Source: Nitrosarchaeum sp.
GTDB lineage: Archaea > Thermoproteota > Nitrososphaeria > Nitrososphaerales > Nitrosopumilaceae
Length of the DNA stretch: 64,000 bases
Reading direction: 5' to 3'
Assembly: GCA_002737445.1 (NCBI GenBank)
Contig: NSIR01000002.1
Location: forward strand, 286,663 to 350,662
Shown here: positions 43,092 through 54,694 of the stretch, in pieces
Numbering within the stretch: position 1 is the first letter of the stretch
Layout: the number at the start of each line of letters is the position of its first letter
Notes under the pieces: model-generated
Database searches by the model: none
What the model was told of the DNA's origin: nothing
The model's input: only the letters and a program-made list of their open reading frames with translations
Program-made: the position numbers and the translations under genes

Positions 43092-43322
43092 TTACTTTTG
43101 TCCAGCCTTCCACAATGCACTTAGAATTGAGCTTTTGATAGCGCCTGAGCCAATCTGTCGAAAAAAAGATAAAGAACTTTTTTGTGTTGATTTTACATTT
43201 TGTGTCGCTACAGCAACAACATGATCAGGTTCAAAGGCATGGAAAAGACCTATCACAAATCCAGCAACAAGGACAAAGAAAGGAGTTGCTGTTGGAAGTT
43301 GTTTGATTAGTTCTTCAATCAT
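43092..43322 (-). CDS. Short NicO/UreH-like nickel-transporter N-terminal fragment
   Basis: The 76-residue protein has one membrane helix leading into GLFHAFEPDHVVAVA, the HAx(E/D)PDHxxAV metal-selectivity motif of NicO/RcnA/UreH nickel and cobalt transporters. It then has SSILSALWKAGQK at the place where full transporters read LWGLGHT. Full family members have six or more helices and over 200 residues. Here the frame stops right after that point and no continuation is seen in other frames. It is 16 nt downstream of the urease-gamma-like gene. It may be a truncated remnant or a small regulatory or metal-binding protein. Confidence 0.62.
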   Translation of the reverse strand: MIEELIKQLPTATPFFVLVAGFVIGLFHAFEPDHVVAVATQNVKSTQKSSLSFFRQIGSGAIKSSILSALWKAGQK

Positions 43323-43338: not shown

Positions 43339-43728
43339 TCAACTAGATTTTAGAATATAATCCGAAATTTGGATTGGTGTATTTAAAACAACAAACTTCA
43401 TGCCCCCATCATCAAGCATGATCTCAAAAGATATTTTTCTCAAAGTTTCAGGAACTCCGATCATTACCTGTTCTGGACTTAAGAGATGTGATGCATTTTT
43501 TTGAATTTGTTCAATTTGTGTGTCATCACGAAGTTCAGAAACAATAAACGCAGAATATACAAGAATAGCTTCGTTGATATTGATTTTAAGATTCTTGTCT
43601 AGTCTATCTTTTGTCATAGCCGATGAATTAATGAAAATTTCCTCATCTGATTTACTAGAATATTGATAAACTCTTGTAAAAGGAGATGTATCAGGTTCTC
43701 CTTTTACAGTTATTTTGATGTAGATCAA
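43339..43728 (-). CDS. Orphan urease gamma subunit-like (UreA-like) protein
   Basis: The 129-residue protein has a 46-residue N-terminal part of unknown kind. From residue 47 (LKININEAILVYSAFIVSEL) to 120 it follows urease gamma subunit nearly without gaps: LKLNYPEAVALISA-type helix, RD, then LLSPEQVMIGVPETL against LTADQVMEGVPEMI, and DDGGMKFVVLNTPI against PDGTKLVTVHNPI. The start overlaps the ureohydrolase stop by 4 nt (ATGA). No ureB, ureC or ureDEFGH is in the window. A partner role for the ureohydrolase is inference. Confidence 0.75.
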   Translation of the reverse strand: MIYIKITVKGEPDTSPFTRVYQYSSKSDEEIFINSSAMTKDRLDKNLKININEAILVYSAFIVSELRDDTQIEQIQKNASHLLSPEQVMIGVPETLRKISFEIMLDDGGMKFVVLNTPIQISDYILKSS

Positions 43729-44843
43729 TCTCGTTTTGGAATTTGAGCACGTGGACCATCACTAAAGTGATATGTATTTCCAGTTCCACGGTAATTGTGT
43801 GGTCGTACAGGATCACCATTTTGTAAACCTCTCTTTGTAAGTGACAAACCAGCTAATAGTTCTATAATGAGTCTTTGTCCAAGTCCAGAGGTAATACCTC
43901 CATTGTATGAACTGTTATCACTTACATCATAAGCAGGAGCTACCTCCACAAGATCCATTGCAAATCTATTAGGATCAAATGATTTTGATAATAATCTTAC
44001 CATTCTCATTCCTTCTCTTGAGGTAAGACCATTTGGTTCTGGCTCACCTGTACCTGGTGCATAAGAAGGATCAAAAGAATCTATATCCCAACTAAGATAA
44101 ACCGCATCGGTTCCATCATTAGCTCTATCTGCTATCTCCTTAGCAATCATGTCAATTCCTAATTCTTCAACATCTAGCATTGTAAACCATTGGAAATCTT
44201 GGTCTGCCATCCATTTATACAAATCACGTCCTGGCCAATATCCTCTTGGTCCTACCAAAGTGTAATTTTTTCCTCTCAAACAACCCATTTCCATTATTCT
44301 TCTAATATGTGCACCATGATCATACTTGTAACCTGTAAGGCCTTGCGGTGCACAATCTGCATGAGTGTCAAAGTGAATCATACCAATATTTTTATATTTT
44401 TTAGCAAATGCACGAACATTTGCAAATGTAATTGAGTGATCTCCACCTAACATAACAGGAATTCCTTGTTCATCAAGAACCTCCTTGACTTTTTTTGTCA
44501 TTCTTTTGTGTGATTCTATTACATCACCAGGTGAAACTTGTACATCACCATAATCAACAGTTCTAAAAGTTCCAAATGGATCTGCTCCTGTCTCAATATT
44601 AAATCTCTCATATGGTGGAGATGGAATAGTAGACGCTGCACGAATTGCACGTGGACCATAACGTGCACCAGGACGAATAGTGGTTCCAAAATCAAAAGGT
44701 TCACCTATAATAGCAACATCAGGTTTTGCATTAATTAATTCCTGATGTGATCTTATCCAAGGTAAATGTAAGAATGTGTTGATACCAACAAATGGTGCAA
44801 CATCAGCTCCATTAAAATCATCACCATAAAATTCCATTCCCAT
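43725..44843 (-). CDS. Ureohydrolase (agmatinase/guanidinase superfamily)
   Basis: The 372-residue protein has all six binuclear metal ligands: His136 (GGDHSI), Asp159, His161 and Asp163 (HFDTHAD), and Asp253 and Asp255 (SWDIDSFDP). The family segment TIRPGARYGPRAIR is also present. It is longer than classical agmatinases (about 300 residues) because of N- and C-terminal extensions. It should hydrolyse a guanidino compound to urea plus an amine or ammonia; agmatine, arginine, guanidine or guanidinobutyrate are candidates. It leads a run with UreA-like and NicO-like genes. A TATA-like TTTAATTATACAA lies about 30 nt before the ATG. Confidence 0.9.
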   Translation of the reverse strand: MGMEFYGDDFNGADVAPFVGINTFLHLPWIRSHQELINAKPDVAIIGEPFDFGTTIRPGARYGPRAIRAASTIPSPPYERFNIETGADPFGTFRTVDYGDVQVSPGDVIESHKRMTKKVKEVLDEQGIPVMLGGDHSITFANVRAFAKKYKNIGMIHFDTHADCAPQGLTGYKYDHGAHIRRIMEMGCLRGKNYTLVGPRGYWPGRDLYKWMADQDFQWFTMLDVEELGIDMIAKEIADRANDGTDAVYLSWDIDSFDPSYAPGTGEPEPNGLTSREGMRMVRLLSKSFDPNRFAMDLVEVAPAYDVSDNSSYNGGITSGLGQRLIIELLAGLSLTKRGLQNGDPVRPHNYRGTGNTYHFSDGPRAQIPKRD

Positions 44844-44952
44844 TTTATATCCACAATATTTCTACAGTTGTATAATTAAACATTTCAAGTAAACTACGTA
44901 TTTATTTATGAATTTTACAAAATTTTTATACATGTAAGTGAACAACAAATGT

Positions 44953-45204
44953 ATGACAAAAGTCAGTTCGAAAGAAGATATCGAAAGGGAATCTAAAAGA
45001 GTAATTTCTGCTTTGTATGGAAATGTAAGTGATTTTCGAGTCAATGAAACATTTCAAATTCCTGAAAAAGGACCAAGGGAGGCATGGGATGTTCAAGTTA
45101 ATTTCATGCGAAATGATCTAAAATACACTGTGGATCTTGAAATACAGGAAAAAGATGGTGAAGTCACCAATGCAAGATTATTAGATACAAAGACTCCGCT
45201 TTAA
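44953..45204 (+). CDS. Small hypothetical acidic protein
   Basis: The ATG at 44953 gives 83 residues; a GTG at 44938 is possible. A TATA-like TTTTTATACATG centred near 44928 places the transcription start at the ATG, so the mRNA is probably leaderless. The N-terminal helix (KEDIERESKRVISALYG) followed by three beta strands vaguely recalls GvpO/PepSY-like small domains, but the match is too weak to name. Its stop interlocks with that of the convergent 45201 gene. Confidence 0.65.
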   Translation: MTKVSSKEDIERESKRVISALYGNVSDFRVNETFQIPEKGPREAWDVQVNFMRNDLKYTVDLEIQEKDGEVTNARLLDTKTPL

Positions 45205-45767
45205 ATTTTTTCGGTATTTTTAAAATCTAAATTACTAGAAAAATTTGTTAGTGTTAGAATTTCCTGTGCTGTTTTAATTTTGTTAAATAATTCATTAAGG
45301 CATACATCAGTAAATTTTTCAAATGTTGGTATTGAATCTTTCAGTTTACTATCAACTTTAAATTTTACATACTCTTTTTGAAGCCATTCAAAATCAGACT
45401 CTTTTAACTTAATTACATGGTTTTGAGCATCAAGTTTTGATTCAAACAAATTTGCCAGGAAATAACTCGTAAATGTAGTAAAACATTTGGTATGATATTT
45501 TTGTTCATATTTTTCTTTCAACTCTTTATAATTTTCTTTTAACCAATCACTTACATCTGATCTAATAGTAATAGTATTGTAACGTCCAGATAAATCTAAT
45601 TTGATATTATGAAAGTTTACACTATAATATCCACGTTTAACTTCATTCATTATAATTATTAATGTGCTAGGAAGAAACATACCTGGATAATATGCATCAG
45701 TGATACTATGCAATCTTGCTAGAATATCAGGCTTTAATCCAATGGTAGAATAACCTTTGCTAGGCAC
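45201..45767 (-). CDS. Protein with three ribbon-helix-helix-like repeats
   Basis: The 188-residue protein seems to hold three copies of one unit, beginning YSTIGLKPDILARL (residue 6), YNTITIRSDVSDWLKENY (63) and HVIKLKESDFEWLQKEY (117). Each has a beta strand with alternating polar residues, then an amphipathic helix, then a Phe/Leu-rich second helix. That layout is like ribbon-helix-helix DNA-binding domains. Function as a regulator is inference. It may face its own promoter in the long spacer upstream. Confidence 0.6.
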   Translation of the reverse strand: MPSKGYSTIGLKPDILARLHSITDAYYPGMFLPSTLIIIMNEVKRGYYSVNFHNIKLDLSGRYNTITIRSDVSDWLKENYKELKEKYEQKYHTKCFTTFTSYFLANLFESKLDAQNHVIKLKESDFEWLQKEYVKFKVDSKLKDSIPTFEKFTDVCLNELFNKIKTAQEILTLTNFSSNLDFKNTEKI

Positions 45768-47576: not shown

Positions 47577-49124
47577 CTAAGCAGCTGAGCGAGTTCCCTG
47601 TTGGGAAGCATGGAAATGTTTCAAATCTTCACCGGATATTACATCTTCTTCTGGAGGAACATAATCATTAATATCATGTCTTTCTTTACCTGGATATTTT
47701 TTCTGAGTTGCAAGAGCTACTATGATAAAGAGTGTGAAAGAGACGACTGGAGGTATCATTGTATCTAAACCTGCTAACTCTACCGGCATAACAAAGAACA
47801 ATACCAATCTAAGTACTGTTCCAACAATAAGCGATACAATAGCTGCAGGCATGTTGGCTTTTTTCCAGAATAATCCTAATGTCAATGGAGCTAAAGCTCC
47901 AGCAAATACAAGATCAAATGCAACAATCAAGTATATTCCAGGTTGAGGCATAAAGTAACCAAGTACAAGTGCAGCCACCATGACAGGAATAACAGCTGTT
48001 CTAGTTATCATAAGTAGTTTGGAATCACTCCAACTGCCTTTACCTAGCAATCTTTGTCGGATAATTCTTTGAAGTAGATTTCTAGAAATTACTGCAGATA
48101 CAGCAAGCATACCACCGTTTGCAGTAGACATTGAAGCACCAAGAACTCCCATTAATAGTGCCGCTCCTATTGCAAATGGCATATGATTGAGAGCTAATTC
48201 TGGGAGTGCGGTATATGGATCTGCAAGTCCTGGTAAAAAGTGAAATGCTATAATTCCTAACATGCCTATTGGTATCACAGTAAAGAATGTGAGTCCTGCT
48301 CCCATGAAAGCTCCCCTACGTGCTGTCTTTGGATCTTTTGCTGCAAATACTCTTTCCATAAAGTCCAACGCAATTAGATCACCTAATCCTAATGCCAGTA
48401 TTCCAGCCCAATTAATCAAAGCACCATTTGCAGTATCAAATAGTCCAGAAAGATCAAGATATCCAGGTGGAGCACTAGCTAGGATTGTATCAAATGAAAC
48501 TCCAGAAAATCCTCCTGCAAAGAAAATGAAAGCTGCCCAAAATGAACCGATTGCAAGATATATCTGGAAAATATCAGTATATGCAGAAGCAAATAATCCT
48601 CCTGCGATGGTATACGTTAAGACTACTAATGCCGCAATAATAATTGCCAATAAGAAAGGTATCCCTAAAACAGTCTGTAAGATAAAACCACTTGCAGCAA
48701 AATTCCCAGCAACGAGTATAACGAAACTAACTATCATCAAAATACCAGAAATTCCTTCTGCACCATTTCCATATCTTCTGAAATAGTAATCAGGTAAAGT
48801 AAACATGGCCATTTTGTTGAGTTTTTTTCCATAAACCAAACCGGTGAGAAGAAGACAAACGCCTAATCCAATTGGTATGCCAGCTCCTGCCCAGAAACCA
48901 AATTGATAAACTAGTGCAACAGCTCCAAGCGATGAATTGCCATCAACTGCTTGTGCCGCGAGCATGGTTCCAACCATAAACAAAGGCAAACTTTTTCCTG
49001 CAACGATTAATCTTTTACCACTTTTTTGTACAAGCTTGTATGTTAAAGTTCCAATGATTAATGATACAACAAGAAAGCCAATTACAGCTATTCCATAGCC
49101 TGTTATCTCGACCATGTTATGCAT
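47577..49124 (-). CDS. Sodium:solute symporter family (SSS) transporter
   Basis: The 515-residue protein has about 13 membrane helices and SSS family features: GKSLPLFMVGTMLAAQAVDGNSS near the N-terminus and AGGLFASAYTDIFQ for the sodium site region, followed by DLIALDFMERVFAAKDPKTARRG. The C-terminal tail is hydrophilic (PGKERHDINDYVPPEED). Substrates in this family include urea, amino and organic acids; which applies here is unknown. A near-identical 70-nt piece of its 3' end lies in inverted orientation at 49281. Confidence 0.9.
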   Translation of the reverse strand: MHNMVEITGYGIAVIGFLVVSLIIGTLTYKLVQKSGKRLIVAGKSLPLFMVGTMLAAQAVDGNSSLGAVALVYQFGFWAGAGIPIGLGVCLLLTGLVYGKKLNKMAMFTLPDYYFRRYGNGAEGISGILMIVSFVILVAGNFAASGFILQTVLGIPFLLAIIIAALVVLTYTIAGGLFASAYTDIFQIYLAIGSFWAAFIFFAGGFSGVSFDTILASAPPGYLDLSGLFDTANGALINWAGILALGLGDLIALDFMERVFAAKDPKTARRGAFMGAGLTFFTVIPIGMLGIIAFHFLPGLADPYTALPELALNHMPFAIGAALLMGVLGASMSTANGGMLAVSAVISRNLLQRIIRQRLLGKGSWSDSKLLMITRTAVIPVMVAALVLGYFMPQPGIYLIVAFDLVFAGALAPLTLGLFWKKANMPAAIVSLIVGTVLRLVLFFVMPVELAGLDTMIPPVVSFTLFIIVALATQKKYPGKERHDINDYVPPEEDVISGEDLKHFHASQQGTRSAA

Positions 49125-49607: not shown

Positions 49608-51302
49608 GTGAAGTACCCTGGTCTGCTTAATCATGATGTAGCACGAGTTGGAACAGAAGAATCTAGAAAATTAAATTTAATTGTAGGCGCAATGGTTACA
49701 GATGCAATTAAGACATCTTTTGGTCCTCGTGGAATGGAAAAAGTTTTCATCGATATTCTCGATGAAGATACTATCACAAAACACGGTGGTGCATTTTTGA
49801 GAAAGATTGATGTTAACCATCCAGTTGCAAAAGCTATCATCGAGGGAGTTAATACTGTTGATACTCATGTGGGTGATGGAACTATTTCTACAGCTATTTT
49901 AATTGGAATGTTACTAAAGAAATCACAAGAATTATTGAAAATGGGAATACCACCAATAATAATTATCAAAGGTTATGAAAAAAGTTTAGAATTTGCATTA
50001 GACATACTTGATAGAATTAAGAGGAAGGAAGATATTAACAACAAAGAAATCATGTATCGTCTTGCTACTTCATGTTTAGCAGGAAAGGCAATTACAAGTT
50101 TAATATCTGAGGATGTATCAATTGTCAATTTAATAGTAGATGCGGTTTGTCACATCACCAATTTTCAAAAAAAGGAGATAGATATAGATGATATAAAGAT
50201 TGAAGAAAAAACTGGAAATGCAAATAATATTCAATTAGTAATGGGAACAATAATTGATAAAACAATTGATAATTCTGCGATGCCAAGAAGTATTGAAAAT
50301 GCAAAAATTCTTCTATTAAATGAGCCTCTGGAAATAATGCGTACCAAAACAGATGACCAAATTGAAATAAATTCACCTGAGCAGATGACACTTTTTCTGA
50401 ATCAAGAAACGGTGGATATACGTGCAAAAATAAAACATATCGCTAATTCCGGAGCTAATGTCATAATATCTAGAAAAGGAATTAATTCCATTGCACAGGA
50501 ATATCTTTCAAAATTAGGAATAATTTCAATGCGGAGAGTAAAAATGAATGATCTTATGTGGCTTGAAAAATCCACAGGAGCTAAAATATGTAAGAATTTG
50601 GAGGATATTTCTAAGAATGAATTAGGATTTGCAAAGAAAGTATATGAAAAAAATGTAGGGGATGAAAAAATGGTGTTTTTAGAAGGTTGTAGTAATCCAA
50701 AATCTGTAACTATTTTACTGAGATGTAATTCCAAGCGTTATCTAGATGAATTTCATAGGGATACACTGAATGTAATTTATGTTCTACGAAACTTTATCGA
50801 AAATTCGTTCATTGTTCGTGGTGGAGGTTCTACTGAGGCAATCATTGCAAATAAAATCAGAGATCAGTGTACAATTGTTGAAGGACGAGAACAGATCGTG
50901 ATTGAAAAATTTGCAGATGCGATAGAAGAGATTCCAATAACTCTGGCAAGAAATATAGGCATGGATCCAATAGATACACTAACTCAATTGAGATCAAAAT
51001 ATGCAAATTGCCCCAAGGGTGTACTCAAATGGTATGGCATAGATTCTGAAAAAAGAAAAGTTTCAGAAATATTTCCAGATAAAGTTATTGAATCATTAAT
51101 AGTAAAACAACAAATGATTAAAACTGGAGTTGAAGTAACTAATATGATACTAAATGTTAATGACATATTTATGAAAGATGAAATTGACAATACTCATTGC
51201 CATATTGATGGAATTGTTCATGCACATCATGATGGCGGAAAAGCACATGATCATTTTGAACAAGAAGGGCTAGAACAACGACAGATGCATCATTATTACT
51301 AG
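49608..51302 (+). CDS. Divergent chaperonin (TCP-1/thermosome family) paralogue with His-rich tail
   Basis: The 564-residue protein starts at GTG and follows the group II chaperonin fold: SFGPRGMEKVFID, VGDGTISTAILIG (usually GDGTTT) and FIVRGGGSTEAIIA. The conserved NDG near residue 59 (equivalent to GroEL Asp52) is KHG, so one catalytic Asp is His. The other catalytic Asp position (HRDTLNV) is kept. The usual GGM-rich C-terminus is replaced by a tail with nine His residues (HCHIDGIVHAHHDGG ... MHHYY). It is probably a specialised or hetero-oligomeric subunit. The main thermosome genes are elsewhere. Confidence 0.88.
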   Translation: MKYPGLLNHDVARVGTEESRKLNLIVGAMVTDAIKTSFGPRGMEKVFIDILDEDTITKHGGAFLRKIDVNHPVAKAIIEGVNTVDTHVGDGTISTAILIGMLLKKSQELLKMGIPPIIIIKGYEKSLEFALDILDRIKRKEDINNKEIMYRLATSCLAGKAITSLISEDVSIVNLIVDAVCHITNFQKKEIDIDDIKIEEKTGNANNIQLVMGTIIDKTIDNSAMPRSIENAKILLLNEPLEIMRTKTDDQIEINSPEQMTLFLNQETVDIRAKIKHIANSGANVIISRKGINSIAQEYLSKLGIISMRRVKMNDLMWLEKSTGAKICKNLEDISKNELGFAKKVYEKNVGDEKMVFLEGCSNPKSVTILLRCNSKRYLDEFHRDTLNVIYVLRNFIENSFIVRGGGSTEAIIANKIRDQCTIVEGREQIVIEKFADAIEEIPITLARNIGMDPIDTLTQLRSKYANCPKGVLKWYGIDSEKRKVSEIFPDKVIESLIVKQQMIKTGVEVTNMILNVNDIFMKDEIDNTHCHIDGIVHAHHDGGKAHDHFEQEGLEQRQMHHYY

Positions 51303-52528: not shown

Positions 52529-53467
52529 CTATTTTATTCTAGCAAGAAGTGCGGAATAAATAAATGGTAAGATGGTAGTTATTTCTGCGTGTATTGTAGT
52601 TTGTTTTGCATTCCGAGTAACTTTACCCCATGAGATGGCTTCTTTTACTAGAGCTCCACTTAAGCTTCCGTCAAATTCTTGAGCTGTAGTAATGTAAACA
52701 GCATAATCAAGACCATCACGATATTGATTCCACCAAAGTGTATGATGTTTTGATATTCCACCACCCAACATGAGAGAACCAGATTTTTTTGCTTTGAAAA
52801 CAAGTGAGGATAAAAGTTCGCTGTCAGCTACGACGTTGAGTTTAAAATCATTATGTTTTTGAGTAAATAACCAAATCTGACTACCTACTGCACCATCTAC
52901 TATTCCAGGTACTACTACTGGTATATTGTTCTTGTACGCCCAATACAAAAATGAACCCTCTCCAAGGTTTTCGCCTATCATTCTTGTAATATCCGCTGTA
53001 GACATTTCTCTCTTACCAGAGTTATAAGCAGTTTCCAAAAACATTTGCATTTTTTCTTCAATTATTGGTCCATAACTTTCCATAGGAACAAGCACATTGC
53101 CCAATCGATGAATGTTCTTTTCTAAAAGTTCTGCATCATCTAGAGTAAATGATCCCTCCAGATAATTTGAGAAATATCTTGCTATATCATGATCTAAAGC
53201 ACCACATGTAGTAATAACAACATCAAACATTTTGTTTTTTAGCATATCTGTAATTATTCCTCGAATACCAGTGGATGTAATTGCTGCAACAAATGAGAGA
53301 AACTTTAGACAGTCTTTATCATTTATCATTGTTGAGAGAATTTCAAGCCCATCAGCAAGATTTCTTGATTCAAACCCACCAGATGTTGATAGTTGCTCAA
53401 AAATGCTTTGAAGATCATCTCCATTTTTTATTGAAATGTCTTTTACTACTCTATGTTGCTCTTCCAT
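52529..53467 (-). CDS. dys: Deoxyhypusine synthase
   Basis: The 312-residue protein has the DHS active-site segment LGGGISKHHTLWWNQYRDG with the catalytic Lys, then DYAVYITTAQEFDGSLSGA and EAISWGKV. It transfers the aminobutyl group of spermidine to aIF5A to start hypusine synthesis. The set of conserved residues is canonical. A second DHS-family gene lies 153 nt upstream on the same strand. Confidence 0.92.
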   Translation of the reverse strand: MEEQHRVVKDISIKNGDDLQSIFEQLSTSGGFESRNLADGLEILSTMINDKDCLKFLSFVAAITSTGIRGIITDMLKNKMFDVVITTCGALDHDIARYFSNYLEGSFTLDDAELLEKNIHRLGNVLVPMESYGPIIEEKMQMFLETAYNSGKREMSTADITRMIGENLGEGSFLYWAYKNNIPVVVPGIVDGAVGSQIWLFTQKHNDFKLNVVADSELLSSLVFKAKKSGSLMLGGGISKHHTLWWNQYRDGLDYAVYITTAQEFDGSLSGALVKEAISWGKVTRNAKQTTIHAEITTILPFIYSALLARIK

Positions 53468-53620: not shown

Positions 53621-54694
53621 CTATTTCTTTAGTTTATTTTTATTAAAATAAGTTTTAGATAGTTCATCATAATATTGTCCTAGTTTCTTGTACAATCGTT
53701 TTGGTTTTCGCGGACTTTCCATACTAAGTGCATATAAGCATAAAACTGGAAACGCTATTGTGGCATCAGCATAAACTACAATGACGTCTTCATGAGAATC
53801 CTTTACTTTTCCCCAGCTCTTACCCTCTTGAAGTGTGGCTCCAGACAAACCTCCGGTATCAGGTCTAGCGTCAGTAATCTGAATAATGTAATTTTGTCCT
53901 CCGTGATCAAGACCCAAAATTTGATCTAATAATGGACCTGTCTGTTGTGCAGTATTTTTTGGTACACCTCCACCTATCTCTACAATTCCAGCCTTTTTTG
54001 AATTGTATAAAATTGCCGCCTGTTCAATTATTTCTCTTACAAAATCTAATGAAAATGGTTTGTTAGCAAGTCTAAGGGGAGCTAGATCAAGTGCAAGTGA
54101 AGAATCTTTAAGCGTTGAAATGTATAGTGGTAAATCATAATCATATGCAGAAACAACAAAACTCTTTTCTGGATGTTTTGAATATTCTTTTGAATATTTA
54201 CCCATCCAGTTTGCAAATTCTGCAGTAGTAAATGGTTTTTCAAAGAAATTATTTTCAAACATTTTTTGTACAATCATATCTTGTTTTTTCAGTGTTTCCT
54301 CACCTTTGATATAGACATCTCTTATTCTAACAATATCTTTCTGATACAAAATCATGTCATCTACATCAAAATGGCCTTGTTTTACAGGTAGATCCCATGC
54401 AAAATGTTCTTCATGATACAAATTAGAACCTGTAGATATTATCCAATCAACAAATCCTTTTTCGATAAGGGATTTGAATAAACCTCCAAATCCAACTGGA
54501 GTCATAGCACCAGCAATAGTAAGACAAATTGTTGCGTCATCTTCAATCATCTTACGGAATAGTTTTGCAGCTTCTCCAAGTTGTCTTGCGTTGTAACCTG
54601 AACTTGCGTAAATTTCTACAAGATCATCAATTTTCATATCTGGATTTACTTCTATATGAGGAATATTTTTTCCATGAAAATTATGATAATCCAT
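53621..54694 (-). CDS. Deoxyhypusine synthase-like protein (second paralogue)
   Basis: The 357-residue protein has the DHS fold but a different active-site version: EIGGGVPKNTAQQTGPLLD and IQITDARPDTGGLSGATLQEGKSWGKV. The Lys is kept, but KHH is KNT and the TAQEFDGS segment is TDARPDTGG. This is the form found in bacterial and archaeal DHS-like proteins, some linked to other polyamine reactions. It may use another acceptor or form a complex with the canonical paralogue next door. Either role is inference. Confidence 0.85.
   Translation of the reverse strand: MDYHNFHGKNIPHIEVNPDMKIDDLVEIYASSGYNARQLGEAAKLFRKMIEDDATICLTIAGAMTPVGFGGLFKSLIEKGFVDWIISTGSNLYHEEHFAWDLPVKQGHFDVDDMILYQKDIVRIRDVYIKGEETLKKQDMIVQKMFENNFFEKPFTTAEFANWMGKYSKEYSKHPEKSFVVSAYDYDLPLYISTLKDSSLALDLAPLRLANKPFSLDFVREIIEQAAILYNSKKAGIVEIGGGVPKNTAQQTGPLLDQILGLDHGGQNYIIQITDARPDTGGLSGATLQEGKSWGKVKDSHEDVIVVYADATIAFPVLCLYALSMESPRKPKRLYKKLGQYYDELSKTYFNKNKLKK

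Follow-up and report, generated by a model that had tools for sequence, protein, structure and literature searches.

Chaperonins are commonly viewed as general folding cages. The locus described here raises the question of what a separate chaperonin, with changed catalytic residues and a His-rich C-terminus, would do in a 1.19-Mb archaeal genome, in which it is the third chaperonin copy. The window (the whole stretch of 64,000 nucleotides of Nitrosarchaeum DNA that we analysed) contains this gene and the linked genes listed in Table 1.

Table 1. Positions in the window of the chaperonin, its altered sites and the linked genes.
Feature	Positions	Strand	Remarks
Group II chaperonin paralogue with C-terminal His tail	49608..51302	+	564 aa; GTG start
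KHG replacing NDG	49779..49787	+	D59H, GroEL Asp52 position
GDGTIS	49872..49889	+	Asp90 (GroEL Asp87 position) retained; Thr93 to Ile
Asn388 at catalytic Asp site	50769..50771	+	Mm-cpn Asp386/GroEL Asp398 position
His tail, residues 527-564	51186..51299	+	nine His
HxHxDGxxHxH motif	51195..51227	+	common with His loop of linked NicO-like transporter
Sodium:solute symporter (PF00474)	47577..49124	-	closest and commonest neighbour in KHG clade
Arginase-family ureohydrolase (PF00491)	43725..44843	-	372 aa; tightest co-occurring gene
Urease-gamma-like paralogue (PF00547)	43339..43728	-	start overlaps ureohydrolase stop
NicO-like transporter gene, shortened	43092..43322	-	76 aa versus about 250 aa in relatives
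Conserved protein c2	44938..45204	+	88 aa; no family; module member
Conserved protein c3	45201..45767	-	188 aa; no family; module member

The chaperonin and its catalytic residues

We analysed the fold and the conserved residues of the 564-residue product. The first-pass annotation had taken it for a chaperonin paralogue, and indeed Cpn60_TCP1 (Pfam) covers the whole ORF with 433.6 bits. Foldseek aligned it with the chaperonin Mm-cpn of Methanococcus maripaludis (3ruq) at a TM-score of 0.80, and the apical region is gapless relative to the Thermococcus thermosome alpha subunit (1q3r), which at the sequence level indicates that the built-in lid (helical protrusion) is retained. Among the NCBIfam models, the protein exceeded the cut-offs for NF041082 and NF041083, but fell short of that for TIGR02339 (487.7 versus 671.1).

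The changes reported earlier in the ATP-binding loops can be read directly from the codons and the translation: K58-H59-G60 is encoded by AAA CAC GGT, and residues 89-94 are GDGTIS. The accompanying statement that the second catalytic Asp is kept is correct for D90; however, it overlooked the third site, where N388 falls on Asp386 of Mm-cpn in a pairwise alignment. As a result, two of the three catalytic Asps are changed, and the triad reads H59, D90 and N388 in place of the three Asps of thermosomes. Alignment with the thermosome subunits of the same genome, proposed earlier as a check, bears this out, as both remaining chaperonins have NDG and GDGTTS and retain the third catalytic Asp. The identity of the window protein to these paralogues is about 40-42% over the body.

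The loss of the residue at the GroEL D398/Mm-cpn D386 position makes slow or absent ATP hydrolysis more likely than was first thought. Mm-cpn D386A binds ATP without hydrolysing it and remains open (PMC5019054), and GroEL D398A keeps about 2% of ATPase activity (PMC3813556). Given these precedents for N388, together with the loss of the Asp52-position residue, the window protein on its own should bind ATP and barely cycle.

The last 38 residues contain nine His, versus seven in the first 521. The proposal that this His tail replaces the GGM tail of normal chaperonins holds as far as the histidines are concerned, but needs narrowing on the other side, since, of the genome's two normal paralogues, just one ends in GGM. 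Elsewhere in the genome, no protein besides the window chaperonin matches the tail. In the AlphaFold model the pLDDT of the tail is below 50, and the model is uninformative there.

Conservation of the tail and order of the changes

Homologues with 46-89% identity were collected from a 200-genome family sample and a scan of GTDB contigs. Residue 59 of 64 distinct homologues is H in 29, D in 25, N in 7 and S in 3, and residue 388 is N in 32, D in 27 and S in 5; all 29 proteins with H59 have N388, and Asp90 is invariant throughout this set. The tail terminates all 75 GTDB homologues whose C-terminus is intact (not cut by a contig end), in Nitrosopumilaceae and Nitrososphaeraceae alike. Thus, neither of the two findings that had been named as fatal to the earlier interpretation, a sequencing error in KHG or absence of the tail from orthologues, can be upheld.

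Within the KHG clade the tail is the most conserved stretch of the protein, with a mean pairwise identity of 0.90; the body averages 0.62, and its best 38-residue window reaches 0.80. Against close relatives, the body gave dN/dS values of 0.10-0.17. Those of the tail were lower (about 0.01-0.10 wherever a value could be obtained), though few sites entered them. Conservation of the residues and the tail, together with these ratios, rules out a decayed paralogue as well as a sequencing error. Residues of the tail other than His are also invariant, e.g. EQEGLEQRQ, and the HHYY end is kept across families. Among the tail matches listed for 400 genomes of the class, nearly all terminate frames of chaperonin length, and the few shorter frames look like fragments at contig edges. 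In a sample of the phylum, 10 of 339 genomes have the tail, all within the window's order.

A phylogeny from which the tail was left out still groups all proteins that carry it into a single clade (SH-aLRT 99), which stands apart from the alpha/beta subunits and from the Hsp60 found in urease loci. Nitrososphaeraceae members, all of which have the tail, mostly show KDG, GDGTTS and D388; Nitrosotalea-type members have KNG or KSG with D388; and those of marine and freshwater Nitrosopumilaceae, to which the window belongs, mostly have xHG with N388. At least three changes at position 59 and at least five at position 388 took place on the tree; the independent events (three pairs) are too few to relate the two losses to each other. 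Because most Nitrososphaeraceae keep the Asps and yet all have the tail, it is the tail, not a dead ATPase, that defines the family, and from the distribution of residues we infer that the tail is ancestral and that the Asp losses came later. Some relatives carry another third chaperonin, of normal type and with a short non-GGM end (L079, G002:C1:676000-687000; gene 680748-682247).

Linkage to urea-releasing enzymes and the case for nickel

We compared the gene neighbourhoods of the family. At ten loci with Nitrosotalea-type or KDG members, the chaperonin gene lies immediately after ureD on the same strand; nine of them have the order ureE-F-G-D-chaperonin, with the chaperonin last, and six have a NicT-type nickel/cobalt permease near it. 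Members of the KHG clade adjoin a cluster 5 sodium:solute symporter, distinct from the symporter of approximately 660 aa beside ureC, and a few genes off lies a module made of the urease-gamma-like paralogue, the ureohydrolase, two small conserved proteins and the NicO-like transporter, as is also the case in the window. The linked NicO-like transporter scores under the Pfam cut-off (21.4 versus 27.7); a full-length relative, at C1:101970-102716, is 52% identical to the query. The window copy was shortened to its 76 aa by an apparent deletion, the nearest relatives being full length. The urease-gamma-like protein is divergent and has no UreB/UreC partners, and it is kept alongside the ureohydrolase across AOA families. 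Two adjacent related genes for putative deoxyhypusine synthases (52529-53467 and 53621-54694, both on the minus strand) are next to the chaperonin in many loci.

The ureohydrolase is also the tightest partner by co-occurrence. In 400 genomes of the class (MAGs of mixed quality, counted without a species tree, with ureC scored by strong PF00449 matches), the tail was found in 82, ureC in 140 and the ureohydrolase in 86. The ureohydrolase is present in 77 of the 82 tail-positive genomes (phi 0.895) and ureC in 73 (phi 0.575). Wherever tail and ureohydrolase share a contig, they lie within 15 kb of each other (62 of 62 pairs), and all nine tail-positive genomes lacking a ureC match have the ureohydrolase. 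Fisher tests of the co-occurrence disregard kinship, but within the window's genus the ureohydrolase is present in all four tail-positive genomes and missing from 11 of the 12 tail-negative ones, among them G003, which has urease and lacks both. The genomes G031 and G248 have the ureohydrolase without the chaperonin.

Urease as the sole partner, which we initially preferred, is weakened by this difference in phi and by genus g41, where the chaperonin accompanies the ureohydrolase module and the urease operon of one genome (G286) holds the Hsp60 of urease loci mentioned above. Moreover, about half of the urease-positive genomes are without the chaperonin, and urease therefore does not need it. 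The ureC of G286 is cut at a contig edge (L241:39-1289), which makes this genome urease-negative by PF00449 even though the operon is present; the absence of urease from g41 is thus at least partly an artefact. We also considered whether the chaperonin tail offsets an absent His tail of UreE, but a long His tail is missing from UreE whether or not the operon goes with the chaperonin tail, so there is no such trade-off.

Counting against nickel, enzymes of the arginase family are often Mn-dependent. The best PDB matches of the ureohydrolase are nearly equal, to guanidinobutyrase 3nio (1.1e-51) and to the guanidinase GdmH 7esr (6.6e-51), and it is 75-99% identical between AOA genomes, though confined to 86 of the 400 class genomes. 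It is likely to be something other than the ubiquitous agmatinase. AOA yielded no guanidinase in two surveys (PMC11410670, PMC12625717). For one soil clade, a symporter gene has been described as clustered with agmatinase (PMC11131427).

A DNA search of eight genomes for HxHx[DN]GxxHxH gave one match per chaperonin tail and a single further one, in the His loop of a NicO-like transporter (G014) encoded next to the ureohydrolase module. Of 664 neighbourhood proteins, those with the motif are 34 of the 35 chaperonins, 9 of the 18 NicO-like transporters and one further protein. Such a sequence fits metal binding by the tail, and histidine-rich segments are enriched in prokaryotic nickel-binding proteins (PMC6821194). 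Nickel would be favoured as the metal, because the urease operon, the ureohydrolase and NicO/NicT-type transporters, one of them with the same His motif, are linked to the chaperonin. The invariant non-His residues suggest that the tail may dock a protein besides binding metal.

Possible functions and comparison with known systems

Taken together, the constancy of the tail and of the gene partners suggests that the function common to the family is most likely client-specific nickel handling. We give about an even chance to the proposal that the protein is the dedicated chaperonin of a nickel-dependent urea-releasing module, with the tail holding Ni2+ near the client. The His tail, placed by homology, would hang into the chamber at the equator and bind Ni2+, keeping the metal near the client during folding, assembly or metallation. 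The main client would most likely be the arginase-family ureohydrolase that travels with the chaperonin, and urease where the chaperonin belongs to the operon of that enzyme. Proteins of the window's clade probably bind ATP and hardly hydrolyse it; the KHG protein alone may then serve as a holding chamber, open or long-lived, whose tails are charged with nickel or, alternatively, may need to join the normal alpha/beta subunits to cycle, whereas members with all Asps could cycle normally. A more specific version, in which the tails within the chamber give Ni2+ to the folding ureohydrolase or urease and so couple folding to metallation, with a nearly ATPase-dead barrel in marine AOA, is put forward only tentatively.

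Compatible with the dedicated nickel chaperonin, though rather unlikely, is that a modified subunit joins the alpha/beta thermosome in small numbers and so provides some barrels with nickel-binding tails. Lost Asps would be tolerable in a mixed ring, and the normal paralogues are there in the same genome; however, the divergence of the body from these paralogues is high. It is also unlikely that the protein is a dedicated folding or assembly chaperonin whose tail serves to dock a single client or partner (the ureohydrolase, the UreA-like protein or UreG/UreD), with a minor role for metal. Conservation of the non-His residues and of the tail end across families would suit a docking peptide, the gene linkage is compatible with any dedicated chaperone, and other AOA urease operons contain a different Hsp60 without a His tail (PMC5797428). 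Yet the core of the tail is a metal-type motif, which recurs in the linked transporter, within its His loop.

A nickel store or detoxifier, a barrel (of 16 subunits if it resembles other archaeal thermosomes) whose nine-His tails sequester nickel and which in the KHG clade does not fold proteins, is a rather unlikely alternative. The window's clade did lose two catalytic Asps while the tail stayed nearly invariant, and HspA has been proposed as a nickel storage pool (PMC3856676). However, most Nitrososphaeraceae members keep all catalytic Asps, a pure sponge has no need of invariant non-His residues, and the tightest partner is one single ureohydrolase. Copper loading or folding of copper enzymes is highly improbable: His tails can bind Cu2+ and AOA are rich in copper enzymes, but nothing that we found points to copper, and to our knowledge copper enzymes such as AMO occur in all AOA, whereas the chaperonin is found in a minority of the class genomes (82 of 400) and is linked to urea genes. 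Equally improbable is an adaptation to pressure or stress, as suggested for a hadal genome with an extra thermosome (PMC7265257), as the family is also found in groundwater, soil and other terrestrial lineages (habitats taken from record titles) and its distribution tracks the ureohydrolase.

A whole nitrifying archaeal lineage keeps a separate chaperonin with a near-invariant metal-type tail, tied to enzymes through which urea becomes a source of ammonia. If nickel loading by the tail is true, one chamber would serve both folding and metallation, and the chaperonin could mark AOA able to use organic nitrogen via the linked ureohydrolase. In the open-licence literature we found no report of the His tail, the Asp losses or the link to the ureohydrolase.

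The closest known system is the thermosome, whose alpha/beta subunits share with the window chaperonin the fold, the domain layout, the ATP-binding loops and 35-42% identity; the window protein differs in its His tail, which replaces GGM or a short end, in the change of two of the three catalytic Asps in its clade, and in belonging to a separate clade. In the hadal Marine Group I MAG MTA1, an extra thermosome that is phylogenetically distinct was noted close to urease and a sodium/solute symporter and was interpreted as a pressure adaptation (PMC7265257). Likewise a third copy, it is very probably a member of the His-tailed family; the main text of that report mentions neither a His tail nor nickel, nor a link to the ureohydrolase or a loss of Asp.

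An Hsp60 homologue has been described in the urease loci of Nitrosocaldus and Nitrososphaerales, and as absent from Nitrosopumilales (PMC5797428). It is also a chaperonin encoded inside an archaeal urease locus, but is 24-26% identical to the window protein, has no His tail, keeps its Asps intact and lies between ureC and ureE. In our tree it forms a separate clade (support 100), whose place relative to the His-tailed clade rests on long branches. Such chaperonins between ureC and ureE (L222:6625-8175, L223:6792-8348 and L226:11684-13240) have a protein of 122-138 aa encoded beside them.

The GroES protein HspA of Helicobacter pylori has a His/Cys-rich C-terminal extension, which binds nickel and without which hydrogenase does not mature (PMC3856676). 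Like the window protein, it belongs to a chaperonin system and carries a His-rich C-terminal extension, that of HspA binding nickel in an organism with urease (PMC3856676). However, HspA is a co-chaperonin of GroES fold, non-homologous to the Cpn60 of the window, and its extension serves the maturation of hydrogenase, not of urease; we thus regard it as a functional precedent and not as a relative. Finally, GroEL D398A and Mm-cpn D386A lack the same catalytic Asp as the window chaperonin. There the change is an engineered Ala, whereas here it is a natural Asn combined with D59H, and the family provides natural counterparts of the Asp-to-Ala mutants used for dissecting the chaperonin cycle.
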